Source: Polaromonas sp. | GTDB lineage: Bacteria > Pseudomonadota > Gammaproteobacteria > Burkholderiales > Burkholderiaceae_C | Direction of reading: 5' to 3' | Assembly (NCBI RefSeq): GCF_029945925.1 | Contig: NZ_JAQSDN010000004.1 | Coordinates: 1-64,000, forward strand | Length of the DNA: 64,000 nucleotides | In this document: in pieces, positions 8,026 to 58,143 of the stretch | Layout: each line of letters starts with the position of its first letter | Position numbering within the stretch: position 1 is the first letter of the stretch | Translations under genes and position numbers: made by a program | Notes under the pieces: model-generated | Told to the model about the DNA's origin: nothing | What the model saw: the letters and a program-made list of their open reading frames with translations, nothing else | The model's database searches: none

Positions 8026-8224
8026 GCACACCCCGTGGAGGCTTCGCCTCCTCCCCCTTGCAGGGGCGGGCGCCTCTCGCCCGGCGAAGCCGGATCGCGG
8101 CCCCCGCTTGCAATGCGGTGTGGCAGCCTCTTGATCGGCACACGGTGCCCAATAGCCCGCCCGCAGCGCCGGCTTTGGCCCGGCGCTTAAACTTCATGGG
8201 TGCCGGCCATGACGCCGGCACAGC

Positions 8225-8466
8225 GTTCTCAGGGCGGGGCGAAATTCCCCACCGGCGGTGTTTGCGTGCAAACGCATCAGCCCGCGAGCGCCCGGCCTGG
8301 CCATTTTTAGTTCAGCGCGAGATTAGGCGCGTCGCCGCAGGCAGTGCTACGGCACGATAAGGCGGCGCAACGACATATCGCGTTGAATTGGAAATGGCAC
8401 CCGGGGTCAGCAGATTTGGTTCAACTCCAAAGCCGACGGTCACAGTCCGGATGAAAGAGAGCGCGA
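8225..8466 (+). promoter_or_regulatory. FMN riboswitch (RFN element)
   Basis: Conserved blocks gttctcagggcggggcgaaattccccaccggcggt, agcccgcgagcg, and gtcagcagatttggttcaactccaaagccgacggtcacagtccggatgaaagagagcg, 100 bp upstream of a lumazine synthase gene. Confidence 0.93.
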
Positions 8467-21973: not shown

Positions 21974-24696
21974 TCACACGGCGACCGCCGGACTGTCAAC
22001 CACCACTGCGCCAAGGGTGAAGTAAAACGTCGCCCCCTGCCCCTCGGCAGCCTTGGCCCAGACCCGGCCCCCATGCCGGTCAATGATGCGCTTGACGGTG
22101 GCCAGCCCGATGCCGGTGCCGGCGTAGTCCGTGGAGGAATGCAGCCGCTGGAAGGTTCCAAACAACTTGTCGGCGTATGCTATGTCGAAGCCGGCACCGT
22201 TGTCCCTGACGAAATAGACAGCTTCGCCGTCTTCTCCCGTCTGGCAGCCCACATCGATGCGCGCCGACGGCTGCAGGGACGTGAACTTCCACGCGTTGCC
22301 CAGCAGGTTCTGGATCACCACCGACAGCAGCAACTGGTCACCCAGCGCGAGCAGCTTCTCCTGGATGTGGATATCCACCGCGCGCTCCGGTTCGCGCTCG
22401 CGGCACGCCTGGACCACCTGCCTGGCGATTTTTGCAATATCCACTGTCCCGGCGCGCAGCGGGTCGCGCGCCAGCTTCGCCAGGGACAGCAGACCCTCGA
22501 TCAGCTCGCCCATCTGGCGGGTGCCGGCACGGATGCGGCTGAGGTAGTGCCTGCCCTGCTCACCGACTTTGTCCCTGGCCATGCGCTCGAGCAACTGGCT
22601 GAATCCATCAATCGTGTTGAGCGGGGAACGCAGGTCGTGTGACACCGAATACGAAAACGCTTCGAGCTCGCGGTTCACGGCCTCGAGTTGCGATGTACGC
22701 TGCCGCACCCGTTCCTCCAGTTCGGCATTGAGGCGCAGGATGCTTTCCTGGGCCTGTTTGCGTTCGGTGATGTCCTGGGTCGAGCCGTGGAGCCGGATGA
22801 CATGGCCGCTGTCGTCGCGCACCACTTCACCAATCACCCTGACCCAGACCCGGCGCCCGCCGGCAGAAATGATTTCCATTTCTTCATCAAACGGCGTTCC
22901 GCTGTCGATACACGCTTCGATAACCGCTTCCATCTTCCCGCGCCACTCAGGCGACACATAAAACTGCAAGGCTTCCTGCAGGGAGGGCGTGGTTCCGGGC
23001 GGCACCTCATGGATTTTGCAGACTTCGTCGGACCAGACCACATGATCCGAGGACAGCTCCAGCATCCAGCCGCCTATCCGCGCGGTGCGCCCTGCAATCC
23101 TGAGCAAGGCTTCGCTCTGGCGCAGCTTGGACTGGATAGCCCGGCGCTCCGTGATGTCTTCGGTCACCGAGATGACGTGCGTGGCCTCCCCCGACGCCGA
23201 CCGCACCATGGACACCGTGGAATGAACCCACACGGCGGTGCCATCCTTTTTCACATAACGTTTTTCATCCGAGAAGCTCTCCAGCTCGCCGGCCAGCATC
23301 CGGTCCCTCTGCGCGGCGTAACGAACCCGGTCGTCGGGGTGGGTCAACTCGCGCGTGTCCATGGCCTGCAACTCGGCCTCGGTGTAACCCACGATGGCGT
23401 AGTAGGCCGGGTTGGCCATCAGGAAGCGTCCGTCAGGCGTGTTCATCACGATGCCTGTTGCAGCGGTGCCGAACATCAGCTGAACCATGTCCTGGCTGAC
23501 CTTGAGCTGCTGCTGCGCCTCAGTCCGCCGCAACACCTCGGTCTGCAGCTGCCGGGTGCGATCGCGAACACTGCGGCGCATCTGCAGGTTCCACAGCAGC
23601 ACCAGGGCCAGCAGGGCGGCGACGCCAACAACCGAGCCGGCCAGCCAACGCGCCTGGGAAGGATGCAGGCCCGACCGCGGTTCGAACATCAACCCCGCCA
23701 GGGAGTAGTCCGCCTTGACCATGCCCAGGCTCGCCAGCGTCCGCGCGATGGACTCCAGCCGGCCGGGGTTGAGTGCCCGATCTCCACCAGATCGGGCAAC
23801 ACCAGAGGCCGCATCTGCATCGCCTCGCCCAGCAGGGCCGCGCGGGTCAGCCCCCGCTGCCGGACGCCCTTCATGCCCGTGATCAGATCGGCGATTTCCT
23901 GTTCGTGGTTGAAGGCATATTCCCAGCCCTTGCGGGTGGCACGCAGGAAGGCGGCGGTACGCTCGGGCGCTTTCGCTGCCTGGGCCTCGGTCGTGAAGAG
24001 AATGTCGCCATAAAAATCTACGCCATAGTCCAGGCTGCGCATGATCGCAGGCGCCACGCCGCGGGCGCGAAGCAAGGCGGGCTCCACCGTGGCATACGCT
24101 GACATGGCATCTACCCTGCCCTCGATCAGGTCCTCGAGCTTCCAGGTCTGGGGGAGGATGTTGACGCGCTGGGGGTCGATGCCCTCGCGTTTGAGCACGG
24201 CGCGAAGTTGGATGCTGCCCTGACCGTCGGAAAGCATGACCCTGGCGCCGACCAGATCGCTGGGAACGCGAATCTGGCGATCCGCCCGGCTCATCAGGAC
24301 ATAAGGCGAGTGCTGAAATATCGCCGCCAGCGCCACGAGCGGCTGCCCGTTGATGCGGTCGATCAGCAGGTCCGAATCGCCAATGCCGTAGTGCGCGTCG
24401 CCCTTGAGAACGGTGGCAATCACCGGCCGGTCTGCACCGCCCTCGCGAATGGTGACGTCCAGGCCTTCATCGCGGTAAAAGCCCTTGGCCAGGGCAGCGT
24501 AATAACCGGCAAACTGGAACTGGTGCAGCCACTTGAGCTGCAGGGTGACGCGTTCGGGTGCTTTGGTGTCGGGGGCGGCATGCACCTGACTGGTGCAAAA
24601 AACCCAGAGGGCAATGACCGGAAAAATGGCCATAACCGCCACCAGCGGCCTCACCGGATTCAGCAAGGACTTGGGCAAGCGGCTCGAGAGAAACAT
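21974..24696 (-). pseudogene. NMT1/THI5-like periplasmic domain + TM + PAS + HATPase sensor histidine kinase, split by an apparent frameshift near 23770
   Basis: ORF 23689..24696 (NMT1: VTLQLKWLHQFQFAGYYAALAKGFYRDEGLDVTIREGG) ends out of frame after LVEIGH. ORF 21974..23722 continues the same domain in another frame (LNPGRLESIARTLASLGMVKADYSLAGL) then TM, PAS/PAC, HisKA (FSYSVSHDLRSPLNTIDGF) and HATPase (DNGAGFDIAYADKLFGTFQRLH). Confidence 0.8.
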
Positions 24697-24957: not shown

Positions 24958-24995
24958 ATAAAAAAAACCGGGCAAAACGCCCGGTCTTTTCTTAT
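24958..24995 (-). terminator. Rho-independent terminator downstream of the pilin gene
   Basis: + strand aaaaaaaaccgggcaaaacgcccggtcttttc; on the minus strand a perfect accgggc/gcccggt stem followed by a T run. Confidence 0.88.
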
Positions 24996-25003
24996 CGCTC
25001 CTG

Positions 25004-25666
25004 TTAGAGAGGTTTGCAGAGAACGAAGCCCGCAGTGGCCTCAACATAAGGGCTGGATGCTCCGGCATTTGCAGCAGGAGGTGCAGCGGCAACAAGTGCA
25101 CGAACATCCCCGGTGTTGCTGACACCGTCATCAAGCATTCGATCCAATGCGCCGGCCTGCTTGCCTGTCAAGCCGCTCAGGCATACAACATTCCGGACGC
25201 CAAAACCAAAGACGCCATTGGTCAGACCAATTTGACCGCCTGCTGCATTTAACAGCGGCCCCGTATCCGTTGAGTTGCCTTCCAGAAATCCAGCGTAGCG
25301 CAGTGCTCGAATGGCTTGCCTGTTTTCCAGAAGTATCGCCGCTGCAGTGTTCAGGAACGGGTTGGAGCCGGCAGCGCCTATCAAACTATCGGATGCAGCG
25401 ACAGCGGTAAGCGCCGGAGCGCTGGTCCAGCCGCGGTCTGCGATATTCGCCGCAGTAAGGTCATCGCCGGGAAGACCACGGTAACGGTCCTGGTAGCTGG
25501 TAACGACTGCGGTCATGCTGCTCATGTCCTTTGCCATGTTCTTGATCCTTGAGCTTTCAATCAGCTCCTGGCCTTTGAGAACACCAGCCAGCAGCAAGCC
25601 AACAATCACCAGAACGATTGCGATTTCCACCAAAGTGAAACCGCCCTGTTTTTTCAATGTTTTCAT
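25004..25666 (-). CDS. Type IV pilin / prepilin-like protein (MSHA major-pilin-like)
   Basis: MKTLKKQGGFTLVEIAIVLVIVGLLLAGVLKGQELIESSRIKNM: class III signal with G|FTLVE cleavage motif; C-terminal Cys pair (VVCLSGL...FVLCKPL). Confidence 0.93.
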   Translation of the reverse strand: MKTLKKQGGFTLVEIAIVLVIVGLLLAGVLKGQELIESSRIKNMAKDMSSMTAVVTSYQDRYRGLPGDDLTAANIADRGWTSAPALTAVAASDSLIGAAGSNPFLNTAAAILLENRQAIRALRYAGFLEGNSTDTGPLLNAAGGQIGLTNGVFGFGVRNVVCLSGLTGKQAGALDRMLDDGVSNTGDVRALVAAAPPAANAGASSPYVEATAGFVLCKPL

Positions 25667-25742
25667 TGATGACTCCAAAATAATTACGCGACGCGGGATG
25701 CATCGGTAATTAAATGTATCTTTTGTTTTAAAGCTAGGGGAG

Positions 25743-26906
25743 TCAGGAATTTTTACAAGGCATGCGCAGCGTGATACGCACCCCCAGGCCCAAGGGCTCT
25801 GCGTAGAGGTTGCCGCCCGCCTGAAGGGCCTGCTTGCGCGCCTGGTACATGCCCAAACCCTTGTTAACCGTCCCGGACGTCGCCCAAGGCTCAAAAAGCC
25901 TGTCCAACGGAATCTCCAGCGGCAACTGAGGCGTTTCGAAATGGACAGCGATGTCCTGCCCTTCTTCCATCACCCGTACCCTGCAGTGTGCCGGCAGCAG
26001 GCGCTCGCGCGACAAGGTGGACACATTGCCCAGCACGTTGTCGAGCACTGTCGCAAGTGCCTGCTCGTCCCACTGCAACCAGGCACCGCCCTCGAGCTCG
26101 ATCTCGACCTGGTGCAATTCTCCGGCCTGGCGGATGTGTTCATCCAGATCCAGCATGGGCGCAGCCTCGGGATCTTCCCGCGAGGTTAGCGGCGCTGAGA
26201 GTGATGGCTGCCAGGTGGGATTGAGCAAGGCCTTCGCCATGCGCTCTGCCCGGTTGGCCGCCAGGGCGGCATTGCTGCGCAACCGCCGCGCGCGGACCAT
26301 CAGCGTCTGGTCGTCCTGTGCCGCCGCAAAGTCTTCTGCCACCAGCTGTACCCATTGCGCTAGGTTGCGCATGTCGTGCTGCAGAAAAACGCCTACCCGC
26401 GCACGCTGGCTGACCGCTGCCACCAGTGCAAGCTGACGGGCCGCCAAGGCGCCCTGAAGCATGGCAAACAGCACCTCGGCGGCCTGCACGGCAAACAGAT
26501 GGCGCTCACCGCGCAAACCTTTGAGTCCGATGCGAAAGTCCAGCGAAATATCGTCAAACTGAAAGCTCTGACAAAGGACGCGATCATCAAACCGCCGCTG
26601 ACCCCGCGCATCGGTCGCCGCCGCCCCATGCACCAGGGCAGGAATGGGCGGCCCCATTCGGGTGAACACCGGCGAGCCATACCAGTTCCCTTGCCAATCC
26701 ATGCTGATCAGGCCTACCTGCGCAAGCGTGCGCTGATGCAGGACCAGCGTGCCCAGCAAGTCATCATGCAAGGCCTCGCGCAAGGCCAGCATCTGGTCCA
26801 TGCGCTGGCGATGCAGGCGGCTCAGGTGGCGCAGCCAAACCATGGTGAAGCCCACGCTCAAACCAGCCACCACCAGTGCCACCGCGGCATCGTAAAGATC
26901 TGTCAC
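25743..26906 (-). CDS. Sensor histidine kinase (PrsK-like, with degenerate H-box)
   Basis: FLQHDMRNLAQWVQLV H-box-like, QWDEQALATVLDNVLGNV N-box-like, LFEPWATSGTVNKGLGMYQARKQALQAGGNLYAEPLGLGVRITLRMP. Confidence 0.82.
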   Translation of the reverse strand: MTDLYDAAVALVVAGLSVGFTMVWLRHLSRLHRQRMDQMLALREALHDDLLGTLVLHQRTLAQVGLISMDWQGNWYGSPVFTRMGPPIPALVHGAAATDARGQRRFDDRVLCQSFQFDDISLDFRIGLKGLRGERHLFAVQAAEVLFAMLQGALAARQLALVAAVSQRARVGVFLQHDMRNLAQWVQLVAEDFAAAQDDQTLMVRARRLRSNAALAANRAERMAKALLNPTWQPSLSAPLTSREDPEAAPMLDLDEHIRQAGELHQVEIELEGGAWLQWDEQALATVLDNVLGNVSTLSRERLLPAHCRVRVMEEGQDIAVHFETPQLPLEIPLDRLFEPWATSGTVNKGLGMYQARKQALQAGGNLYAEPLGLGVRITLRMPCKNS

Positions 26907-27520
26907 GACGCCGCTCTTTCGATACCGAACTTTTTCATGAAGTAGTACAGGTGCTCCCGGGTCAGCCCCAGCTTGCGGGCAGCCTGTGCCACATTGAACT
27001 GACTGTCGGTCAGCACCGAACGCACCAATTTTTCCTGCGCTGCCTCGCCGAACTCCCTGACGCCTTCCCCAATCGGTGCAGTCAATGTCATGCGCGCCTG
27101 TCCGTCGGTGCTCAGCTGTTGTTCAGCCTGCAGAAACAGCACGGCACGGGCCAAAGCCTCGCGCAGGCGCTGGCTGCTGGCGGGTTTGTTTAGAAAGTCA
27201 AACGCACCCAACCCAATCGCCGTGAGCGCGACTGAAGGTTCGTCCTGGCCGGTCAGCACCACCACTTTGAGCGAAGGCCGCTCCAGGATGAGCAGACGCA
27301 GCAACTCCAGACCGGCCGTTGGCTCGTTCGGATGAGGCGGAAGGCCCAAGTCAAGCAAGGCGAGGTCAAACGGCGCTTGCGCCTGCCGGGCAATCACCAG
27401 CGCTTCAGCAGCAGAGCCCGCCGAAAGCACGTCGTAACCCATGTCTTCGAGCGAGCCGCACCACCAGTCGCGAAGAGATGCGTCGTCTTCGACAATAAGA
27501 ACGGTGTGGTGAACTGGCAT
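26903..27520 (-). CDS. Response regulator: REC domain + Fis-type HTH, no AAA domain
   Basis: MPVHHTVLIVEDDASLRDWW...LALLDLGLP...VVVLTGQDE...LNKPAS; C-terminal SQFNVAQAARKLGLTREHLYYFMKKFGI. Confidence 0.9.
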   Translation of the reverse strand: MPVHHTVLIVEDDASLRDWWCGSLEDMGYDVLSAGSAAEALVIARQAQAPFDLALLDLGLPPHPNEPTAGLELLRLLILERPSLKVVVLTGQDEPSVALTAIGLGAFDFLNKPASSQRLREALARAVLFLQAEQQLSTDGQARMTLTAPIGEGVREFGEAAQEKLVRSVLTDSQFNVAQAARKLGLTREHLYYFMKKFGIERAAS

Positions 27521-27522
27521 TG

Positions 27523-28425
27523 TTAAGGCAACACCCCAGCCTTTATCAAGCCACTTCCAATGACACTTGTCGGTTGCCATAGAAAAATATCATCGAAGGC
27601 GCCGTTAGCTGCACCAGGTTCCGAGCGCGGATGAAACACATACACCGGGTCATTGTCCAGGTTGGCAGACTCATCCGCGCCACCCCCACCAGGAAGCTCA
27701 GCACCATTGCGCACCGTGGACCAGACTACGAAACCGGCCTGGGCTAAACGCACTGCAGTCCCGCAACTGGTCGCCGTGATACCAGTGACGGTGGTACAAA
27801 CCTCCAGCTGACCCACTGGAATACCTGTAGTGGCAACAAATGAAGGAAAGAATTCGGCCGCAGAAACTGCAGCGGGCACACCGTCCAAGTAGTAAGCGCT
27901 CTTAAGCCCATCGACCTGTGTAAACGGATAGCAGGGCGCCCCGGCTACCGAACAATCCTTTTTTGTCACGGCTGGGTTGTGCCCAGCCCCAATATATGCC
28001 CGCTGATCAACAGCGTAGCGCAGGCCAAAACCCCATGCATCCTGCATCAGCCCGTCAGGCCCCTGTTCACCAAGGCCCAGGGTACGAGCTGGTACAAAAC
28101 CGTCGTTCGGATTGGCACATTGACCCCGCGTGCCTGCCGCGCCTGCGGATACCACTTCAAGTCCGGCGCTAACCGCAGTAGCAGGACAAGGCAGCCTCCG
28201 ATTCACCATCGCAAACGCCATGATGGCGTCTGAAGCCTGCTTGATGCGCTCCTGGGTATCGCCAACTTTCCTGTTTTCAAGCTGTGGCCCAAGCGCCGCC
28301 ATAATTCCGCCAAGCGCCAAGCCAACGATCACAAGTACCAAAGCAATTTCTATCAGGCTAAACCCGCGCTGACGCAGTCTGAAAACAGCAGGTAGAAGCA
28401 CTTTATCAGCGGGGGGATGATTCAT
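27523..28425 (-). CDS. Prepilin-type protein with long leader (minor pilin-like)
   Basis: MNHPPADKVLLPAVFRLRQRGFSLIEIALVLVIVGLALGGIMAALGP: RG|FSLIE prepilin motif; 300 aa with multiple cysteines. Confidence 0.9.
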   Translation of the reverse strand: MNHPPADKVLLPAVFRLRQRGFSLIEIALVLVIVGLALGGIMAALGPQLENRKVGDTQERIKQASDAIMAFAMVNRRLPCPATAVSAGLEVVSAGAAGTRGQCANPNDGFVPARTLGLGEQGPDGLMQDAWGFGLRYAVDQRAYIGAGHNPAVTKKDCSVAGAPCYPFTQVDGLKSAYYLDGVPAAVSAAEFFPSFVATTGIPVGQLEVCTTVTGITATSCGTAVRLAQAGFVVWSTVRNGAELPGGGGADESANLDNDPVYVFHPRSEPGAANGAFDDIFLWQPTSVIGSGLIKAGVLP

Positions 28426-28993
28426 TTTCCTTACTCCTTCTAATACTGACACCCACCCCAGCCTTCGGCGGAATGATCCGGATAGCCCCGGGGGGCAACA
28501 AATCTACCGCCTGCCCCGAAGGCACATCAATCACCTGCCCCGGCCTGGCTTTGAGTTGCATGTCATGGCCCCCGGACTGCAACACACCCGCCCGACCCGC
28601 CAGCGTGCGCAAGGGATTGGCTGCACCTCGTCCATAAATCGGCTGGTCATTGACCCACACCGTGCTGCGGTTGCCTGAACGGACCACCACGCCACTGACG
28701 ACCAAAGCATCGGGCAAACCCGGCGACACATCAATGGAAGGATCTTTCTGCAACACTTGAATGCCGGCATCCGGGTTGTCGGCAGTATTCCGTAATGTTT
28801 CAAGGTTGCGTCGCTGGGATGGCGAAAGGATAAGTGAGCCCAGCGTGTCGGAAGTGAAGTTAGCCTGCGGAGCCGCTAGCAGGGGACCAGCAGCTTGCGC
28901 CATTGCCGAACAAGTACCCAACGTGATCACGGCACAGACCGCACCCCGCACCCATAACATAAGCCAGCTTCGGACTGGCAGCAAAGCTGTCAT
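28406..28993 (-). CDS. Hypothetical secreted protein in the pilus operon (MshK/PilP position)
   Basis: Signal-like N-terminus AVCAVITLGTCSAMAQA; SGVVVRSGNRSTVWVNDQPIYGR; short overlaps with neighbours. Confidence 0.75.
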   Translation of the reverse strand: MTALLPVRSWLMLWVRGAVCAVITLGTCSAMAQAAGPLLAAPQANFTSDTLGSLILSPSQRRNLETLRNTADNPDAGIQVLQKDPSIDVSPGLPDALVVSGVVVRSGNRSTVWVNDQPIYGRGAANPLRTLAGRAGVLQSGGHDMQLKARPGQVIDVPSGQAVDLLPPGAIRIIPPKAGVGVSIRRSKENESSPR

Positions 28994-29006
28994 GACATGC
29001 CCGCTT

Positions 29007-29639
29007 TCATGGTGCTTTCGGCGCTACGCCTTCAGCTACCACATACAACCATGACAAACTGCATTGCGCATCCAAGGCCATCGTGGACCTTTCGCCCAAA
29101 CTGAATTTCTTCCCCAGATAGGTACAGCTATCTGCTGTGAAATAACCGCCGCTACTACCCTGCAGACGCGCCAGCAGTTGTAGCCATTCCTCCTCATGAA
29201 TCGTGCTGGCACTGAGTTTCATCGGTACCCGCACCAAGTGGGCCACCGTTACCCCGGTCTTGTCATCGTTCAGTGGCTTGAGCTTTTCCTGTGCACCGAG
29301 CTCCCATAAGACAGTGACTTTTCGCATATCACGGGCAGCGACTTCCAGCGCTTCCAGCATCGCAAGGCGGTCGGGCCTGTGAGCAAAGCGGGACTGCCTG
29401 AGTTTGTCAAACATCTGCAGGTTCTCCTCAAGACGTGCCCGGTCCGACTGCGTGTTTTCGAGCGACAGGTTGGCCGCGTTCAGTGCCGCCTCGGCCTGGG
29501 CCGCTTCCAAGGCAATACTGTCGGCCAGCCAGCTTGCGCCACCGGCCAACGACGCAGCAACGGTACACATGATTGCCCCCAGCACAAGCGGCCGGGCGGC
29601 CATGCGCCAGACGCTGCTCGGTTCTTGCTGGTTGGTCAT
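29007..29639 (-). CDS. Pilus assembly protein, MshJ/PilO-like
   Basis: Single N-terminal TM followed by a coiled region (AEAALNAANLSLENTQSDRARLEENLQMFDKL); ATG overlaps upstream stop. Confidence 0.7.
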   Translation of the reverse strand: MTNQQEPSSVWRMAARPLVLGAIMCTVAASLAGGASWLADSIALEAAQAEAALNAANLSLENTQSDRARLEENLQMFDKLRQSRFAHRPDRLAMLEALEVAARDMRKVTVLWELGAQEKLKPLNDDKTGVTVAHLVRVPMKLSASTIHEEEWLQLLARLQGSSGGYFTADSCTYLGKKFSLGERSTMALDAQCSLSWLYVVAEGVAPKAP

Positions 29640-31201
29640 GGCGCAACCTTCTCCAGACACAGGTCCAGCGTGCGTGCGCCCACCTCGCCCAGCGTGCCGG
29701 TCTGGACCTGCACCGGGTCCAACGTTACGGTGGACTTGAGCAAAAAGGCCGACCAGCCTCCCGTATTCAAACCAGCAAGCAAGCCGTCCTGCAACTGCAG
29801 TGCCTGCCGCTGTGTCAATGCCAGGGGAAGCGCCGCGGAGAAGCTCAGCAAGGCAAGGGCGGGTTTGGCAGCTTCCGCAGCAGCTGCAGCGGCATCAACC
29901 ACCTTGGGGCATCCAAAAGGCTGGGCAGGAGCAGGAGGCGCGCCGGCGGCTTGCACCTGCAAACGCGGCAGTGTCCAGCTGATTTTTTGCACTTCCACCC
30001 CCGGTGCACCCTTCAGTGCACCGGCCAGATGCTGCAGACCGGCAAACTGGTCGGGCTGCGACGCGAGGGTTTGCTGCCAGGCCTGCACCGCCGCCACAGC
30101 AAGGCCGGCCTGGCTCAGGTCGCCCTTGGCGCGCAGGACTTCCTGGCTGGCCTGCTGATTGATGACCGCTGCGCGCGCCAGTTGCTCCTGGGCCAGGTTG
30201 CGCTTGCCCCAGGACAGCCACAACAAGTCTGCCGACCACAAGACAGCCAGGGCCAAAGCCGCGATGCCGCCGTACTTCGCACCGGCGGCGATCTGGGCAG
30301 CGCGCCATTGCGTGCGTGACTCGTCCGGCAAAAATTGCAGTTGTGCAGAGGCCGACTTGATCCGCGGCAGCAGCCGGGCATAAGCGTCGGTCACACCTTC
30401 AATAAATTGCACGTCCAGTGCGGGGTCACTGCCAACCTCCGCGAGGGCCTGCTCGTCGTCAAACGGCAACCACATCTGCGTGGCGACCGGCTGGTCCGCG
30501 CTGCCCAGCCATTCCTGTGAAATCAGGTACTGGACGGTTCTGCGCGCTTCGGCCAGCACAAAGGCCGCCGACAGGCTGCCTTCGCCCACACTCAGGGCCA
30601 GCCGCGAAAACAACGGGGTCTTGCCGCGAACCAGCACCTGCCGCAAACCGGCAGGGGTGGCCACCAGGGCCAGGATAGGCCGAAGGCTGGCGGGCTCCGG
30701 TGGCGCCGGGGGGCCTTGCACCAGCGGATCGGTGCGCGGCCGCCGGGGCAACTTCTGCCGGACCTCCAGCGCGATCAGGGCCGACAGCGGCCACAAGCCC
30801 TTGACGCGAATGTGGTGCGCCGTCAGGGCGGCCAGCCATTGGGCGATGCGCTCGCTTTGCCCCATGCCGATCAGGCTGACACGGGTCGGCGGTCGCCACG
30901 AGCCGGAGGGAACCAGCACGGCGGCGCGGTAGGGGTTGTCGCGCATCTGCTGCTGCAGCCGGCGTTGCAGCAGTTGCTGCCGGGTGCCGGCCAGCCAGAT
31001 GGGCGGCAAGACGTTGCGTATATAGGCCTCGTCCATGATGTCGCTGACCAGCGAACAGTTGCCGCGCGCGGGCATGTGGGCAGCGACCCAGGCGACGGGG
31101 TCAACATCCACACCCGCTGCCGCCACAGGCTCGGCGCGGGCGCCGCTCAGCCGGTACAGATGGACCGACTGCTGCGCAATGACGAGGGCGAAGTCCAGCA
31201 T
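29636..31201 (-). CDS. Pilus assembly protein, MshI / PilM-PilN-like
   Basis: 521 aa; N-terminal actin-fold-like region and a mid-protein TM (GGIAALALAVLWSADLLWLSW) followed by a coiled segment; position in operon. Confidence 0.65.
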   Translation of the reverse strand: MLDFALVIAQQSVHLYRLSGARAEPVAAAGVDVDPVAWVAAHMPARGNCSLVSDIMDEAYIRNVLPPIWLAGTRQQLLQRRLQQQMRDNPYRAAVLVPSGSWRPPTRVSLIGMGQSERIAQWLAALTAHHIRVKGLWPLSALIALEVRQKLPRRPRTDPLVQGPPAPPEPASLRPILALVATPAGLRQVLVRGKTPLFSRLALSVGEGSLSAAFVLAEARRTVQYLISQEWLGSADQPVATQMWLPFDDEQALAEVGSDPALDVQFIEGVTDAYARLLPRIKSASAQLQFLPDESRTQWRAAQIAAGAKYGGIAALALAVLWSADLLWLSWGKRNLAQEQLARAAVINQQASQEVLRAKGDLSQAGLAVAAVQAWQQTLASQPDQFAGLQHLAGALKGAPGVEVQKISWTLPRLQVQAAGAPPAPAQPFGCPKVVDAAAAAAEAAKPALALLSFSAALPLALTQRQALQLQDGLLAGLNTGGWSAFLLKSTVTLDPVQVQTGTLGEVGARTLDLCLEKVAP

Positions 31202-31203
31202 GG

Positions 31204-32406
31204 CTAGAACTTGACCTTGGAGATCAGGTCGTAGATTGGCAGCATCACGGAAGACATGATCCAGGCGATCATGCCGCCCAGCACCAGCGTCAGCACAGGC
31301 TGTATCAGCCCCTGCAGCTTTTCAATGGCATCGTTGACTTCGCGGGTGTAGAAATAACTGACGTTTTCAAGCGCCTTGTCCAGGCCACCCGTGCTTTCGC
31401 CAACCCGGATCATGCGAACAACCAACGCCGGAAACAAGGTGGTTGCGGCGAAGGAGTCCGACACCTTCTGTCCCTGGGAAATGCTCAGCGCTGCACCGCT
31501 GATGGCCTTTCGATAGGCGGCGTTGTCCGAAAGACTTAAACAGAACCCGAGCGCGTCGAGTACCGAGACGCCGCTTTTGTACATCAGGCCAAACGACTTG
31601 GCAAAACGCGCCATGATGATCTTCTTGAGGATGGGGCCGAAGATGGGCGCCCGCAATTTGGCACTGTCCACCCAGAGCCTGGCCGCCGGCGACAGGCGCA
31701 CCGCCGTGATCCACGTGGCTGCAACTAGAAAAATCACCAGGGGAATGGTGTACCAGTAATTGACCAGAAAGCCGGAAAAAGCCACCAGCGCGCGTGTCTG
31801 GATGGGAACCGTTCCGCCCAGGTTCTTGATGAAACCGATCAACTGTGGCACGAGGTAGATCATCAGAAAACCAACGGCGCCAAGCACCACGGTGCCGGCA
31901 AACACCGGGTACATCAGCAATTTTTTGGTCTGCGCGGCAATTTCGTCCGACCACTTCAGGCTTTCCACGAGCTCGGCCAGCACTTCCGGCAACTTGCCGG
32001 TGGCTTCGCCGGTACGAATCAGGTTGACGTTGACCTTGTCGATGCCTGCAGGCGATTGCTCGAGCGCCTCCGACAGGCTGGCGCCGCCCTCGATGCGGTC
32101 TACCAGGTCAGAGATAAAACGTCGCACGGTGGGTGTGTCGGCAGAGTCGCGCAAATCGATCAGCGATTCAAACAAGGGCACACCTGCATGGCTCATCGTC
32201 TGCATGTGGATGAAGATGTTGATGAGCTCCTTGCTCTCCAGCTTCTTGCGGGCAAACAGCGTAACGGCCCGTACCGGCGTGGCTTTCAGAAGCTCCAGCT
32301 GCATGCGGCCCAGGCGCGCTTCCAGGTCCGACTCGCTGGTGGCGGACTGGCGCCCCGAGATGGTCCGGCCCTCGGCCGTGATCGCGCGGTAGTTGAACTC
32401 CAGCAT
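31204..32406 (-). CDS. Type II secretion / type IV pilus inner-membrane platform protein (GspF/PilC/MshG family)
   Basis: MLEFNYRAITAEGRTISGRQSATSESDLEARL...SHAGVPLFESLIDLRDSADTPTVRRFISDLVDRIEGGASLSEAL: two T2SSF domains. Confidence 0.95.
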   Translation of the reverse strand: MLEFNYRAITAEGRTISGRQSATSESDLEARLGRMQLELLKATPVRAVTLFARKKLESKELINIFIHMQTMSHAGVPLFESLIDLRDSADTPTVRRFISDLVDRIEGGASLSEALEQSPAGIDKVNVNLIRTGEATGKLPEVLAELVESLKWSDEIAAQTKKLLMYPVFAGTVVLGAVGFLMIYLVPQLIGFIKNLGGTVPIQTRALVAFSGFLVNYWYTIPLVIFLVAATWITAVRLSPAARLWVDSAKLRAPIFGPILKKIIMARFAKSFGLMYKSGVSVLDALGFCLSLSDNAAYRKAISGAALSISQGQKVSDSFAATTLFPALVVRMIRVGESTGGLDKALENVSYFYTREVNDAIEKLQGLIQPVLTLVLGGMIAWIMSSVMLPIYDLISKVKF

Positions 32407-34121
32407 CAGTTGGCCAACCGGGTCAGGTCCACCACGCGGGCCACCTCTTCAAGCGAGGTTGTGCCTGCCAGCACGCGGCCCAGCCCGTCTTCGGCCATGG
32501 TGGTGAAACCATTGCTGCGCGCGTGGGCCAGCAGCTCGGGCGTGCGGGCGTTGCGCGACAGCAGGTCGTCCAGGCCCATGTCGAAACGCAGCAGCTCCAT
32601 GATGCTGGTTCGCCCCTTGTAACCCTGGTTTTTGCAGTGGGCGCAGCCCACGGCGCGGTAAAGGGTCAACGGCAGATGGTGCGCAACGCCCAGCAGCGAC
32701 TTTTCAACATCGCCGGCTTCATAGGCAACCTTGCACTTGGGGCACAGCAGGCGCACCAGGCGCTGCGCGACGATGCCGATCAGGTTGCCCGTCATCACGC
32801 TCACGGGAATGCCCAGGTCCAGCAGCCGGGCAATGGCCAGCACGGCTGAATTGGCGTGCAGGGTTGAAAACACCTGGTGGCCCGTCATGGCGGCACGAAA
32901 AGCCATCTCTGCCGTCTCGTGGTCGCGGATCTCGCCGACCAGGATGATGTCCGGATCCTGCCGCATCATGGAGCGGATGCCGTTGGCAAAGTCCATCTTG
33001 GGGTTGTCGGCGGCAGAGGCCTGGCGGATACGCGCCATCGGGTATTCGACCGGGTCCTCCAGCGTCATGATGTTGACGCTCTCGGTGTTCATCTCATTGA
33101 GGATGGAGTACAGCGTGGTGGTCTTGCCGCTGCCGGTCGGCCCCGTCACGAGGATGATGCCGTAAGGCCGGGCCAGCATCAGCCGCAAGGTGTTCATGCG
33201 GTCGGCAGGCAGCCCCATCTTGTCCATGGGCACGATGGACTTGCGCCGGTCGAGCACCCGCAGCACGAAGTTCTCACCATGGATGGTCGGCTGCGCGGCG
33301 GCGCGAAAGTCAACATCGTGCCCACGTATGACCATGGAAATACGCCCGTCCTGGGGTGCACGCGTCTCGGCGATGTCCATGCCCGACAGGACCTTGAGCC
33401 TGACCGACAACGCCGGCCAGTACTGCTTGTGCAGCACCCTGACCTGCCGCATCACGCCGTCAATGCGGTAGCGAATGCGCAAGAAACCCTCTTCGGGTTC
33501 GAAGTGAATGTCGGAAGCGCCTTCGAGCACAGCATCGGCCAGCAGTGCATCGATGAGCCGGACAATCGGGTGCGCAAAAGCCTCCGCGCCGCGCATGGAC
33601 AGTGCGCTGTCGTCCATCTTGCCGGTGCGCAGCCCCTTGAGGATGTCGTCGATGGACAGCACATAACCATAGAAGCGGTCGATGGCGGCCTTGATGTCAG
33701 CCTTGGACGCCAACCGCCAGCGCAGTGAAATATCTGCAGGCACGGCGGAGCGGCACTGGTCCATGGCCACGACGTCGTTGGTGTCGCTGATGGCCACCGT
33801 CAGTTGCCGGCTCTCGTCGTCAAAGCCGACCGGGAAAACGTCGTAGTTCTGCGCCAGCGTTTTCGGAATCAGCTTGATCGCCCCGTCGTCGGGGACCATG
33901 TCGTCGAGGCGGATGGCTTCTGTGGCACTGGCCGCCGCCATGATGGCCGTGAGGTCATCGAGCGACAGCATGCCCAGGCTGACCAGGATGTCGCCGAAAG
34001 AGCCGCCGCGCTTTTCACGCTCGGTCCAGGCAATCTCGGCCTGGTCGTGTGTGATCAGGCCGCTGCGCTCGAGCTCAAGGTAAAACGACGTCGGGTTGTA
34101 GACGTCGAGTTTGGCGTTCAT
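32406..34121 (-). CDS. mshE: GspE/PilB/MshE family assembly ATPase
   Basis: ILVTGPTGSGKTTTLYSILNEMN Walker A; LEDPVEYPMARIRQ; MRQDPDIILVGEIRDHETAEMAFRAAMTGHQVFSTLHAN; zinc CxxC motifs (LLCPKC, CAHCK). Confidence 0.95.
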   Translation of the reverse strand: MNAKLDVYNPTSFYLELERSGLITHDQAEIAWTEREKRGGSFGDILVSLGMLSLDDLTAIMAAASATEAIRLDDMVPDDGAIKLIPKTLAQNYDVFPVGFDDESRQLTVAISDTNDVVAMDQCRSAVPADISLRWRLASKADIKAAIDRFYGYVLSIDDILKGLRTGKMDDSALSMRGAEAFAHPIVRLIDALLADAVLEGASDIHFEPEEGFLRIRYRIDGVMRQVRVLHKQYWPALSVRLKVLSGMDIAETRAPQDGRISMVIRGHDVDFRAAAQPTIHGENFVLRVLDRRKSIVPMDKMGLPADRMNTLRLMLARPYGIILVTGPTGSGKTTTLYSILNEMNTESVNIMTLEDPVEYPMARIRQASAADNPKMDFANGIRSMMRQDPDIILVGEIRDHETAEMAFRAAMTGHQVFSTLHANSAVLAIARLLDLGIPVSVMTGNLIGIVAQRLVRLLCPKCKVAYEAGDVEKSLLGVAHHLPLTLYRAVGCAHCKNQGYKGRTSIMELLRFDMGLDDLLSRNARTPELLAHARSNGFTTMAEDGLGRVLAGTTSLEEVARVVDLTRLAN

Positions 34122-35833
34122 CGGGACGCCCCCGCAACCGCGCCCGCCTTCAATGCGGCCAGCCTGGTGCGCGCGCTGGTTTCGTCAAACCCCGAGGCCC
34201 GTCCCTGGGCCAGCCCGATCGCGGTTTCGTAGTACTGGGCCGCGAGACCGGACTTTCTCAGGTGGTCCAGCGTCACCGCCAGGTTGTAGGCGAATTGCGG
34301 CTCCTGGGGCGCTGCGGAATGCGCCTTGAAAAACAGGGGTTGCGCCTCGGACCAGCGCTTTTCGCCGGACAGGACCAGCCCCAGGGCATTGTTCAGATCG
34401 GCCTCCTGCGGCGACCGGGCCAGCATTTCCCGGAGCCTGGACTCCTGCTGGGGTTCGCCCGCGTTGGTGATCAGGCTGCTGAGGCCGGCGAGTGCCGTGG
34501 CGTTTTGCGGCTCCAGGCGCAAGACCCGCTTGTAGGCATCCATGGCCGGTTCGCGCTGGTTGCTGGCATGTGCAATGACGGCCAGACCGAGCCAGGCATC
34601 ACGCTGGGTCGGATCGGCCCTGAGAACTTCCTGATAGAGCCGGGTGGCTTCCGTGGTCTTGCCCGCCTGGTAGGCCGCATAGGCAGCGTCCATGAGCGAG
34701 GCAGGTTTTGCGGCATTGGGACGCAATGCCACGCCCGGTCCGCCGGCGGCGACATCCGCCCCACCGCGGCTGTCGCCGCTGGTGGGCGCCTGCCTGGCCG
34801 CGGTGGTGCGTGCAGAATTTTGCGCCACTACGCGGGGACGAGACGTCACAGGCACCGGGCCAGAAGATGTGCGGGTTGGGCCGCCAGCCACCCCTGGCGC
34901 GGGCGACGGGACCATGCCGGCCACCGGCTGTGCGGCGGCAGGGGCACCCCTGTCTGCCCCGGCAACCGCCGTTGTTTCGCTGGCCGCAGCGGGCAGATTG
35001 CCGGGTGCGGCAGTATCGGTTGGGGGCGCCGGGGATGCCTCAGGCGCAGCGACCTGTGGGGCGACGACTGGCACGATGGGTTTGCTCGCAAGCAGTGTGC
35101 TGGAGGACCCGAAAAGCGCATCCCCAAACAGCAAAAAAGCGGCCAGGGGCAGAGCCACCACCAGCGCCACGGCAGCCAGCAGCCACTGCCGTCGCTGAGC
35201 CCTGTTCGGCACCTTGCGGGCGCCGGCACCCGCCATCGCGCTCGCGGCCGAGATCGCCTGGCGCTGTGTGGTTCCCGCCAGGGGCGCGGCCCGGTCCAGG
35301 GGCCCCGCCGCGGTCGGCGTTGCCTCTGGGGCTTGGGACACCGGAGCTGGCCCGGCGAAGGACCCCGTTGAGGAGCGCACCGGTTCGCGTGCCACTTGGG
35401 CGGCGGCCCAGCCCCCGGCGACAGGACCCGTACTCTGGCCGGCTTCCGCGCCGATTGGTCTGGCATAACGTCCATAGGACTGAATCGGCGTCCGGGGGTC
35501 GGCGACCGAGGTCACAGGCGTGGCTTGCGGCAACGGCGCGGGGGCAGCGGCTTGGTCCGAGACCAGCGTCAGATCCGGAAAATCCGTCTCGGACGCCGGT
35601 GCCTGTGGCGCCATGGAAGCATGCGCATCAGCCCCGGCCGGCTCCGGGGTGGGGTATGAAGGCGGCGTCTGCGCCTGCAAGGTCAACTCGGCGCCGGATG
35701 CCTGGGCCTGATCCGCGGGCGTGCCCCCCACGGGCGCCATGGGCGTCGGGCCGGCGCCGGTCGCAGATGCGTCCAGCTTGCGCTTGCGGGAGTCCTCCTC
35801 TGCCCGGCGGAGCGCGTCGAGCAACAAGCTCAT
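34118..35833 (-). CDS. TPR protein (MshN-like)
   Basis: MSLLLDALRRAEEDSRKRK, Pro/Ala-rich middle, TM (WLLAAVALVVALPLAAFLLFG), C-terminal TPRs. Confidence 0.82.
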   Translation of the reverse strand: MSLLLDALRRAEEDSRKRKLDASATGAGPTPMAPVGGTPADQAQASGAELTLQAQTPPSYPTPEPAGADAHASMAPQAPASETDFPDLTLVSDQAAAPAPLPQATPVTSVADPRTPIQSYGRYARPIGAEAGQSTGPVAGGWAAAQVAREPVRSSTGSFAGPAPVSQAPEATPTAAGPLDRAAPLAGTTQRQAISAASAMAGAGARKVPNRAQRRQWLLAAVALVVALPLAAFLLFGDALFGSSSTLLASKPIVPVVAPQVAAPEASPAPPTDTAAPGNLPAAASETTAVAGADRGAPAAAQPVAGMVPSPAPGVAGGPTRTSSGPVPVTSRPRVVAQNSARTTAARQAPTSGDSRGGADVAAGGPGVALRPNAAKPASLMDAAYAAYQAGKTTEATRLYQEVLRADPTQRDAWLGLAVIAHASNQREPAMDAYKRVLRLEPQNATALAGLSSLITNAGEPQQESRLREMLARSPQEADLNNALGLVLSGEKRWSEAQPLFFKAHSAAPQEPQFAYNLAVTLDHLRKSGLAAQYYETAIGLAQGRASGFDETSARTRLAALKAGAVAGASR

Positions 35834-37605
35834 GGCCGGCGCCCCACAGGCACCGGTGTGCCGATGGACAGCTGACTCCGGATAAAGGAGGCGTCGCCAT
35901 CAATGCTCGAGTCGCGAAGGATGGTGGGACGCAGGAAGATGACCAGTTCGCTTTTGTTGGACTGATTGCTGCGGACCTTGAACAGTTCGCCAACGACCGG
36001 CACATTGCCCACGCCGGGAATCTGGTCCGTGGCGTTGCTCTGGTCGTCCTGCATCAGGCCACCCAGCACCGCGGTCTCGCCGTCCCGCACCTTCATGATG
36101 GACTCGAACTCGCGCGTCTGTATTTCAGGAATCCGGTTGGTGACACCAGCTGTCGCCAGCGCGGGACTCGGATCATTGACATAACTCATGATCCGGGACA
36201 CGGACGGACGCAGGTTCAGCGTGATTTCATCGTCGTCACCGACCTGGGCCGTCACGTTCATCAGAAAGCCCACCGGCACGGTGTTGATGGTGGTGGTGTA
36301 AACCGCTGCAGTGGGGGCCACACCAAGTGAGCCTGGCGTGCCCGGCGTCACCGAGATCGTGAAATACACCTTGTTGTCCACCACCTTGAGCAGCGCGGCC
36401 TGGTTGTTCATGACACTGACCTTGGGACTGGAAAGCACGCGGGTCTTGCCGAATGATTCGAGCAGACGCACGGTCGCAGAAATATCGGTTTTTCCGAAGG
36501 ATTTCTGGGCGGTAAAGGTACCAAGAGAAGCTGGATTGACGCCCGTCAACAGGGCTGTTCCGCCGCCGGCGGCCATCACCAGGCTCAGCGGTGTGGAGAC
36601 CGCGTTCCGGATGAACGACCAGTTAATCCCTTGCTGGTAATCGTTGCTCAACGCCACTTCCACAATCGTGGCTTCAATCAACACCTGGCGCCTGGCATTG
36701 CCGACGACCTGGTCGAGAAACTCGCGCACGCGCGCATGCTGCTTGCCCGTGGCGCGAACACTGATCACACCCGTTTCCGGATTGGCAATGACCGATGCGG
36801 CCTCGCGGTAAAGCGGTTGCGGCGCGGCAGCCGCTGGCGCAGCAGTGCCGGTGATGGCTCGGCCGGCAGCACCCAGCGCCCCGGCCACAGAGGCCACAGG
36901 TGTCGGCGCCGCGGGCGCCGTAGCAGGTGCGGCGGCGGCCGTCGTTTCAATGACCTTGTCGGTTTCCCGGAGCAGGTCACGGATGTTTTCCGTGAGCGTG
37001 ACCCAGAACCGGTTGTTGGACGTATTGCGAATCGATGCGGACGAGGAGTTGCCCGTACCCGAGGCGGTGCCCTGTCCGGTGGTCGCGACCTGCGACTCGG
37101 AGCCCGTGCTGCTGACCGAATCGCGGGAGATGTTGGGGTAGTCGGCCTTGTACAGGCGCAGAAACGGCGTGTCGGGCAACACGAACAAGTTTTTGCCTTC
37201 CAGCTCGTAACGCATGTCCACCTGCCGCGCAATGCGATCCAGCAGTTCGGAAATCGTCTGGTCCAGCGCATTGAGCGTGACGGTGCCGGTGATGCGCGGG
37301 TGAACATCGAGGTTCAATTTGGCATCGCGAGCCAAGGCAAACAGCAGGGTCTGGACGTTGACGTTGCTGACCACCACGCTGTAGGTTTCCTGCGGTTTGA
37401 CCGCCCGGGGGGCGGGCAGACGCGGCGCTCCGGCCGAAAGCGGGGGGATGCTGACGACGTCGCTGGGCGCCTGGGCGAGTGGCGGAACCGTGCCTGGCTC
37501 CTCGGCCAGGTGTCCTTTGGACAAGGGCGGCGGCGGCGTTGCACAGCCTGCAAGCACCAGTGCGGCCAGCAAGGCCGGCTTCCAGACGGGGCAATGCGTT
37601 TTCAA
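35830..37605 (-). CDS. mshL: Secretin, lipoprotein (MshL/PilQ-like)
   Basis: LVLAGCATP lipobox; STN-like region; SVIANPETGVISVRATGKQHARVREFLDQVVGNARRQVLIEATIVEVALSNDYQQGINW; secretin core GETAVLGGLMQDDQ...GVGNVPVVGELFKVRSNQSNKSELVIFLRPTIL. Confidence 0.94.
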   Translation of the reverse strand: MKTHCPVWKPALLAALVLAGCATPPPPLSKGHLAEEPGTVPPLAQAPSDVVSIPPLSAGAPRLPAPRAVKPQETYSVVVSNVNVQTLLFALARDAKLNLDVHPRITGTVTLNALDQTISELLDRIARQVDMRYELEGKNLFVLPDTPFLRLYKADYPNISRDSVSSTGSESQVATTGQGTASGTGNSSSASIRNTSNNRFWVTLTENIRDLLRETDKVIETTAAAAPATAPAAPTPVASVAGALGAAGRAITGTAAPAAAAPQPLYREAASVIANPETGVISVRATGKQHARVREFLDQVVGNARRQVLIEATIVEVALSNDYQQGINWSFIRNAVSTPLSLVMAAGGGTALLTGVNPASLGTFTAQKSFGKTDISATVRLLESFGKTRVLSSPKVSVMNNQAALLKVVDNKVYFTISVTPGTPGSLGVAPTAAVYTTTINTVPVGFLMNVTAQVGDDDEITLNLRPSVSRIMSYVNDPSPALATAGVTNRIPEIQTREFESIMKVRDGETAVLGGLMQDDQSNATDQIPGVGNVPVVGELFKVRSNQSNKSELVIFLRPTILRDSSIDGDASFIRSQLSIGTPVPVGRRP

Positions 37606-39185
37606 GGGACAGGTTCCTTACGGATGGCGTCGAGACTGCGCACAACCGGGTTGTAGCGTCTGATGGCAGCAGGCGCAGATTGTATGAACTCGAGGGCGTC
37701 CGCGCGGGTTTCGAAGTGCCCCGCATAAAGAGCGTGAAAGAGCTGGCGCTGGTAGAGCCGGTTATGGACGAGCACCGGCGCGGCGGGCTGCGCAGCGCCG
37801 TCCAGCGCAGCCTGGACTTCATTGGCCATGGCCAGCACCTCGGCATCCCGGGGGGCGCGCTGGGACAGCAATTGAACCGTGAACCCCTTGCTGGACAGTT
37901 TAGCGATGAACTCGTCCGTGGCCTGCATGCGAACGGCCAGCGAGTTGTCCTTCAGCTTCGCAACCAGCGCGGGCTCCGCGATCGACGCTTTTCCGGCTGC
38001 AGGCGTTGGGGGCACCGGGACCGCAGAGGCCGGACTGGTGACAGGGCGGGTCGGCGGGGCTACGGCCACAGGCAGGACGGGACTGGGAGCCGCCTGAGCG
38101 ACCGGGACAAGCTGCGACGGCGAGTGTGGCCCGGATGGCAGCGAAGGCGGCGGGCTTGTGGTCGGAATCGAAGCCGCCTCGGAAACCAGCGGCGTTACCG
38201 GCTGGGTCATGGCCACGCGCTCATTCCTGTCCATGTTTTTTCCGCTGCCCAAAAGATATCCGACGCCCAAGGCGACCAGCACCCCGAAGCCTGCCGGCGC
38301 AAACCTGCGCCACAGGGCTGCAGAGTTGCCGCTGGCTGTGTTTGCGGCAAACAGCGTGGCGCGCCTGGTGGTCGGCAGGCTGTCGCCGATCGCGCGGCGC
38401 ACCTGGTCGATACCCACTTGCGGCACACCTTCCGCATACGCCGCCAGCATGGACTTGTCGGCCAGCATGTTGAGCTTGCGTGTACGCCCCTCGGAGGCCT
38501 GAACCAGCAGGCGCAACGCGGCGGCGTCAAACAGCTCGCCCCCCTTCCACCCGGCCTTGTGCAGGCGAAACATCAGGTAGGCCGACGCATCCTGGGCATC
38601 GAGCGGCTGCAGTTCAAACCGGTGGCTGATCCTGTCCTTGACCTGCCTGAGTTGCGGTGCGGCCAGCAATTCGTCCAGCTCGGGCTGGCCAAACAGCACT
38701 ATTTTCAGGAGCTTGTTCTGTGTCGTTTCCAGGTTGGACAGCAGGCGGATTTCCTCCAGCGTGGTCGCCGGCATGCTGTGCGCCTCATCGATCACGACCA
38801 CCACGCGCCGGCCCTGGGAGTAACGCTCGATGAGCACGGATTCCAGCGCCGCCAGCATGTGCGCCCGGTTGCCCTGCGGCGGCTCGGGCATCAGGTCGCG
38901 GGCAATGGCGCCCAGAATTTCGTCGCGGTCAAAAACTGGGTTGGCCAGGTAAACCGTGTCCGACGGCAAGGGCCGCAGCCGCTCCAGCAACATGCGGCTG
39001 AGCATGGTTTTTCCCATGCCGATTTCACCCACCACACTGACGATTCCCTCGTCATGCATGGAAGCAACGATCAATCCCTCAAGGATGTCGCCACGCTGGC
39101 CTCCGGTAAAGAAGAGTCCTGTGTCGGGTGTAATGCGAAAAGGATCCGTCGACAAGCCGAAGTGATCTAGGTAAAGAACACTCAT
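37602..39185 (-). CDS. mshM: AAA ATPase (ExeA/MshM-like) with Pro/Ser-rich linker and C-terminal SPOR-like region
   Basis: MSVLYLDHFGLSTDPFRITPDTGLFFTGGQRGDILEGL...VVGEIGMGKTMLSRMLLERL...VVVIDEAHSMPATTLEEIRLLSNLET. Confidence 0.9.
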   Translation of the reverse strand: MSVLYLDHFGLSTDPFRITPDTGLFFTGGQRGDILEGLIVASMHDEGIVSVVGEIGMGKTMLSRMLLERLRPLPSDTVYLANPVFDRDEILGAIARDLMPEPPQGNRAHMLAALESVLIERYSQGRRVVVVIDEAHSMPATTLEEIRLLSNLETTQNKLLKIVLFGQPELDELLAAPQLRQVKDRISHRFELQPLDAQDASAYLMFRLHKAGWKGGELFDAAALRLLVQASEGRTRKLNMLADKSMLAAYAEGVPQVGIDQVRRAIGDSLPTTRRATLFAANTASGNSAALWRRFAPAGFGVLVALGVGYLLGSGKNMDRNERVAMTQPVTPLVSEAASIPTTSPPPSLPSGPHSPSQLVPVAQAAPSPVLPVAVAPPTRPVTSPASAVPVPPTPAAGKASIAEPALVAKLKDNSLAVRMQATDEFIAKLSSKGFTVQLLSQRAPRDAEVLAMANEVQAALDGAAQPAAPVLVHNRLYQRQLFHALYAGHFETRADALEFIQSAPAAIRRYNPVVRSLDAIRKEPVP

Positions 39186-39632
39186 GTTTTCAAATACTTG
39201 TTAAGGAATACTCATGTTGTGCAACGTCATTTTTTCAATGGCGGCTATAACAAGGATTATGCGTTTGAAACCAAAAATGCAAGAAATTGTTACGCATCCA
39301 ACGGGAACGACTGTTGCATTCAGGGAATACCGACGCGGCCGCGGGCCGACCGGCATAGTTACCCGCATTGCACGGGGAGCAACAGGATCTGTTGCGGGAA
39401 CGAACCGGGCCACCTCGCCTTGGGGGCCCTTGGTCGTGCGAATCCGCAAAAAGAGATCTGCCCATGCAGGCGGGTGACCAGAGAAGCCAACCCTGGGGAT
39501 GGAGTGGCACAGGCGCCGGTTGCGCGCCACCGGCTTCCCGGGTGGCGCGCCCCAAGCCTGAAGAGGCGACCTGGGAAAACTTGTACATTGCCTTCAGACG
39601 GCGCGAACGCCACCTGAAGGCGGGATGGCCGC

Positions 39633-57886: not shown

Positions 57887-57908
57887 GGCCGGCTTCAGCT
57901 ACACTTGC

Positions 57909-58124
57909 GCGGTCAGGAGAGAGTTTTCCTCGCGAAAACCGCCGAAGGCGCATGCGGCACCCCAATGGTGCTCTGAACGCTCAGGCAAAAGGACTGGCAA
58001 CCGCCACCCGGGCGAACATCTTCCGGGCGGCGTTCCCTACTGGAGAGAGGCCACCTTCGAGGTGGTCCACCGAAGGAGCAAACCTGCATCGCCAGGCGAA
58101 TCTCTCAGGTAAAGAGGACAGCAG
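57909..58124 (+). promoter_or_regulatory. Tandem glycine riboswitch
   Basis: Two aptamer-like halves: ggtcaggagagagttttc...gccgaaggcgcatgcggc...gctcaggcaaaaggactg and ctactggagagaggcc...caccgaaggagcaaacc...atctctcaggtaaagaggacag; directly upstream of gcvT. Confidence 0.93.
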
Positions 58125-58143
58125 GGGCAGCCCATGATTTTTC

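Follow-up and report, generated by a model that had tools for sequence, protein, structure and literature searches.

We analysed a stretch of 64,000 nucleotides from a Polaromonas sp. (contig NZ_JAQSDN010000004.1 of assembly GCF_029945925.1, a genome of 4.78 Mb in 71 contigs), here called the window, and in it a minus-strand locus at 25004-39185 that appears to encode a type IV pilus of the mannose-sensitive haemagglutinin (MSHA) type with a two-component system set among its genes. A preliminary description had listed twelve minus-strand genes here and had placed a kinase/regulator pair between two prepilin genes. All twelve open reading frames are present, with tight junctions, in the order M-L-N-E-G-I-J-K-prepilin-regulator-kinase-pilin in the direction of transcription. 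The first gene encodes an MshM-like AAA ATPase with a C-terminal SPOR-like stretch (37602-39185; AAA_22 4e-26, and 190 bits against TIGR03015, under the cut-off), whose position is conserved. It is followed by the mshL secretin gene (35830-37605), a gene for an MshN-like TPR protein (34118-35833; TPR families and synteny), and the genes for the MshE extension ATPase (32406-34121; GspE/PilB models) and the MshG inner-membrane platform (31204-32406; GspF-family models). The next three proteins match no library family and are assigned from position, topology and synteny: an MshI-position protein (29636-31201), an MshJ-position protein with one apparent membrane helix (29007-29660) and an MshK-position protein with an apparent signal peptide (28406-28993). 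A long prepilin, pre2 (27523-28425; N_methyl 1e-5), the response regulator (26903-27520), the histidine kinase (25743-26906) and the pilin (25004-25669; N_methyl 3e-7) complete the locus; the last is probably the MshA-type major pilin and adjoins the regulator and kinase in nearly all relatives. A predicted intrinsic terminator, a stem and a T run, lies 3' of the pilin gene (24960-24985), and every feature listed is on the minus strand. Neighbouring frames overlap by 4 nt at the M/L, L/N, N/E and regulator/kinase junctions, by 1 nt at E/G and by 20 nt at K/prepilin, with the prepilin ATG at 28425, while 2 nt separate G from I, 13 nt J from K and 73 nt the kinase from the pilin. For the regulator and the pilin we preferred the starts at 27520 (MPVHHTVLIVED) and 25669 (MKTLKKQGGFTLVE) over those of the longest frames.

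The secretin scores 259.6 bits against TIGR02519, above the curated NCBI cut-off of 250.2, which supplies the mshL of the MSH model of Denise et al. (PMC6668835) and bears out the earlier assignment of the locus to an MSHA-like pilus. The remaining machinery, apart from the I, J and K proteins, matches the expected families below equivalog cut-offs: a GspE/PilB-family ATPase, a GspF-family platform and an MshM-like AAA protein are syntenic with MSHA-type loci, the models compared not being MSH-specific, and the pilin gene encodes a class III prepilin by a model that is not MshA-specific. We consider it quite unlikely that the locus encodes a pseudopilus-type secretion system and not a surface pilus. 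GspE and GspF models do score highest for E and G, and the pilins match GspH/GspG weakly; however, all matches of E and G to models of the type II secretion system fall under the cut-off, MshL exceeds its own, and mshM- and mshN-like genes are present. The preliminary description also held that peptidase and retraction functions would have to come from elsewhere. This agrees with the sole match to a prepilin peptidase (PilD), on contig C62, and with three PilT-family genes on contigs other than that of the locus, but the missing peptidase is nothing special and accords with the MSH model: like the MSHA of Vibrio and Shewanella, the locus has, besides MshL, apparent counterparts of the pilin, MshE, MshG and MshM, and MSH loci in general contain no prepilin peptidase gene (PMC6668835).

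A match to the MshL model does not by itself mark an MSHA locus, and we dropped this equation: among 20 such loci fetched, nine had the secretin and an MshM-like gene only, with no E or G nearby, and four had a different order. The 181 of 349 genomes of the order that match the model are therefore only an upper bound for MSHA loci. The MshL-scoring secretin of L189, L191-L196, L198 and L201 stands beside an MshM-like AAA gene with no extension ATPase or platform within reach; this is another system, which inflates MshL counts.

The locus had been described as rearranged, which holds against Vibrio and Shewanella only. The locus differs from them in its gene order, M-L-N-E-G-I-J-K, with the regulator and kinase embedded and with no mshD/O/P/Q-like set. 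The other Polaromonas loci are arranged in this way too, as far as assembly gaps allow, so that the order is not due to chance; followed by prepilins, it is also found in loci from other families of the order and in several betaproteobacterial families, with or without the regulator-kinase pair (without it, for example, in L197). Since these betaproteobacterial relatives share the order, which is ordinary for their MSHA type, the departure from Vibrio is a lineage trait and not a local rearrangement. In relatives from other families one more gene, large and prepilin-like, usually stands between K and the prepilin; the Polaromonas loci are without it. One relative (L063:8187-9663) has an ABC-2 permease-like and a TPR-like gene between prepilin and regulator.

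The regulator consists of a receiver (REC) domain (Response_reg 4e-20) and a Fis-type helix-turn-helix (HTH_8 3e-6), without a sigma-54 AAA domain, and its phospho-acceptor Asp57 lies in the motif DLGLPP; the acidic pair E11-D13, D57, T90 and K112 are invariant in 12 regulators. The kinase is predicted to be anchored by one N-terminal membrane helix, followed by a small mixed domain, a DHp domain and a catalytic domain. Its HATPase_c match is below the cut-off; its AlphaFold model (pLDDT 75.5) has a standard histidine-kinase core whose PDB matches are histidine kinases, and both the phospho-acceptor His177 and the ATP-binding Asn290 are invariant in 13 kinases. The closest curated models for the two proteins, here and in distant relatives, are PrsK and PrsR of XrtA/PEP-CTERM loci, but the scores are far below the cut-offs: 99.7 bits in two stretches against 502.6 for the regulator (PrsR, TIGR02915, its best NCBIfam model) and 20.7 against 300 for the kinase (PrsK, TIGR02916), which has about half the model's length, and PrsR differs further by its sigma-54 AAA domain. 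PilR, in turn, is an NtrC-type sigma-54 activator. With PilS it regulates the major pilin gene pilA of Pseudomonas type IVa pili (PMC6058289), a pair controlling a major pilin as we propose here, whereas the present regulator, with REC and Fis helix-turn-helix only, is not of the NtrC type, and the pilus class is different. EmbRS of Rubrivivax was ruled out as a described relative of the pair, its regulator being of the LuxR type and at a different locus (PMC3684757). In the literature searched we found no description of the pair, and none joining MSHA, pilus and Polaromonas.

A second linkage of a regulator to MSHA operons was seen in loci of Nitrosomonadales, Azonexaceae and Methylophilaceae, where an NtrC-type gene lies just upstream of mshM in operons of the same gene order (L166, L168-L170, L174, L175, L177, L179, L180, L182, L185, L200, L203, L204). 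Its product shares the DLGLPP motif but is a full REC-AAA-Fis protein encoded at the opposite operon end, and its REC domains group apart from the REC-Fis set.

In every orthologous Polaromonas locus long enough to show it (L051-L057), the pair is flanked by the prepilin and the pilin; within the genus, the secretin has an orthologue in 9 of 87 genomes. A kinase profile matched 6 of 349 genomes of the order, all six with an MshL gene within ~12 kb of the kinase, and in single families it matched 15 of 158 genomes (that of G199, Gallionella), 9 of 246 (that of G185) and 6 of 301 (the window's own). Scanning GTDB contigs with the regulator alignment, we obtained 50 close REC-Fis matches; many loci stem from metagenome bins, and taxon names are those of the records. 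The titles include Polaromonas, Rhodoferax, Undibacterium (among them the named strain Undibacterium seohonense KACC 16656, L137), Herminiimonas, Hydrogenophaga, Gallionella and Sulfuritalea, and further Gammaproteobacteria, Desulfocapsa, Deltaproteobacteria, Syntrophaceae, Thermodesulfovibrionales, Nitrospirae and Deferribacteraceae. Where contigs were long enough to check, a kinase gene adjoined the regulator in 45 of 48, a pilin gene followed in 33 of 39 and MshE/MshG-type genes were nearby in 28 of 30. Distances among regulators, kinases and MshE proteins correlate (Spearman 0.62-0.75, 27 loci), from which we infer that the three have moved together. Neither of the two outcomes named earlier as refuting holds: the pair is not found in all MSHA loci, and it is no one-off insertion. 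It belongs stably to this type of locus and occurs sparsely, in MSHA loci of Burkholderiales, Gallionella, other Gammaproteobacteria and Desulfocapsa.

Two Polaromonas genomes provide an empty site. They lack the segment from 24,784 to ~39,530 of the window (14.7 kb), and their CoA-transferase gene, 98-99% identical to that of the window, directly adjoins the substrate-binding protein gene. Since the whole cassette is absent from these sister genomes, machinery and regulators have been gained or lost together, as one block. Outside the cassette, a substrate-binding/PAS/histidine kinase gene (21974-24696) that forms a single 906-aa frame in L051 is interrupted in the window, where its length differs by one base.

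The junction between kinase and pilin holds a conserved inverted-repeat element, (T)GTAWA-N7-KACW, or TGTA-N9-(T/G)ACA in its full form, which is the new finding of this analysis. In the window the putative operator, TGTAAAAATTCCTGACT (25741-25757), covers the last codons of the kinase gene and its stop codon. Seven aligned Polaromonas junctions have TGTAAAA, then TCCTGACTCC, with a 16-nt invariant stretch AACAAAAGATACATTT and variable sequence in the rest; a candidate -10 box of the pilin promoter, TACATT (25713-25718), lies inside the invariant 16 nt. Across phyla, TTG often follows the element, with a TATAAT-like hexamer 16-18 nt on. Of 36 kinase-pilin junctions, 25 contain the pattern GTA(A/T)A-N7-(T/G)AC(A/T), the expectation by dinucleotide shuffling being 0.08 (maximum 1). 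None of 122 junctions elsewhere in these loci contains it (regulator 36, E 24, G 24, I 23, prepilin 15). Because the pattern had been read off these 36 loci, it was tested on held-out loci fetched later, five already seen being removed: the element was present in 13 of 20, against 0.06 expected. A stricter form had 9 of its 12 matches in the kinase-pilin gap and two more at the gap edge, and none in 600 kb of 31 control loci without the pair (11 with the NtrC-type regulator and 20 other MshL loci). Ranked by a position weight matrix, the window site comes first in the 64-kb window, and second of ~128,000 positions when the Polaromonas clade is left out of the matrix. A weaker operator-like site upstream of mshM (39278-39295) is conserved in five close Polaromonas only.

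Seen directly are the genes present, the conserved pair and a junction element that is itself conserved and confined to pair-bearing loci. On this basis we think it likely that this is an MSHA-type cassette that comes and goes as one block with a dedicated two-component system controlling the pilin promoter via the junction element. The membrane-anchored kinase would phosphorylate the REC-Fis regulator, a dimer of which would bind the inverted repeat, which overlaps the -35 region or lies immediately 5' of it; the regulator would thereby control, probably activate, a promoter dedicated to the major pilin. Pilin supply would thus be tuned apart from the machinery genes, which the operon promoter would drive. 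The 'self-regulated' locus of the preliminary description is consistent with such an operator-like site conserved in front of the pilin.

We weighed three other explanations. The element might belong to the core promoter of the pilin gene or be recognised by a sigma factor, and not be a site of the neighbouring regulator, which would fit the spacing of 16-18 nt between the TTG and the TATAAT-like hexamer in many loci; yet it is an inverted repeat and lies upstream of this TTG, the -35 position, its strict form is absent from the 31 control loci and it accompanies the regulator across phyla, so that we regard this as unlikely. Still less probable is that the pair is a hitch-hiker with its main targets elsewhere. 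Such regulators commonly act on many targets, and 6 of 349 genomes is a sparse occurrence, but the pair is found consistently ahead of the pilin in many families, co-varies with MshE and has the element at the adjacent promoter. We give somewhat more room, as a minority possibility, to the same mechanism with reversed sign, with repression of the pilin promoter by the regulator, lifted by the kinase: in the window the element is close enough to the promoter that a bound protein could block polymerase, although activators typically bind where the element usually lies, immediately upstream of -35.

Several observations weigh against control of the pilin promoter by the pair as we propose it. The element is missing in some loci (L124, L127, L143, L220, L222, L242, L243), regulators stand without an adjacent kinase in L144, L154 and L157, and the middle domain of the kinase matches no library family. 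The boxes assigned as -10 and -35 in the window are weak candidates, and a consensus sigma-70 promoter sought at the pilin was not found. Another factor could also read the element.

The Vibrio MshE binds c-di-GMP via two copies of RLGxx...G...LxxxLxxQ, and a change of Gly11 abolishes binding (PMC5013675); the MshE described here differs in lacking this motif. By motif comparison the N-terminal MshEN site (33930-34088) is eroded. In the Polaromonas clade and in L108 and L109, neither the initial R-L-G nor the glutamine of the first copy is kept, and at least one of its two spaced leucines is gone (the window has SFY...A...W..R); the second copy is altered in part. In contrast, (R/P/K)-(L/I)-G is retained in the first copy of every other locus compared, whether pair-bearing or control. 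The MshE of the Polaromonas clade has thus apparently lost c-di-GMP binding. A link between the pair and loss of the motif was considered and rejected, as most other pair-bearing loci keep it. Tentatively, and with rather low confidence, we propose that a portable module of REC-Fis regulator, short membrane kinase, 17-bp operator and controlled pilin may define an MSHA-like pilus subtype in several phyla, and that in the Polaromonas clade, because the c-di-GMP pocket of MshE is eroded there, it may have replaced c-di-GMP as the main pilus control.

Most knowledge of MSHA pili comes from Vibrio and Shewanella, in which c-di-GMP controls them. A widespread subtype with its own two-component control, if real, and a clade in which the c-di-GMP site of MshE has apparently been lost, would revise the view of surface attachment in environmental Betaproteobacteria, and the junction element provides a short, directly testable candidate operator.

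The pilin leader contains a predicted hairpin of six pairs (25689-25705), all kept in the seven Polaromonas loci, with one compensatory pair; the longer leader (25664-25705) has a folding z-score of -4.5, and the hairpin could be a 5' stabilising stem. An outer helix over the pilin Shine-Dalgarno showed no compensatory change and is not claimed as regulation. A search of Rfam found no RNA family within the locus; elsewhere in the window lie an FMN riboswitch and a tandem glycine riboswitch, at 8221-8466 and 57904-58131.

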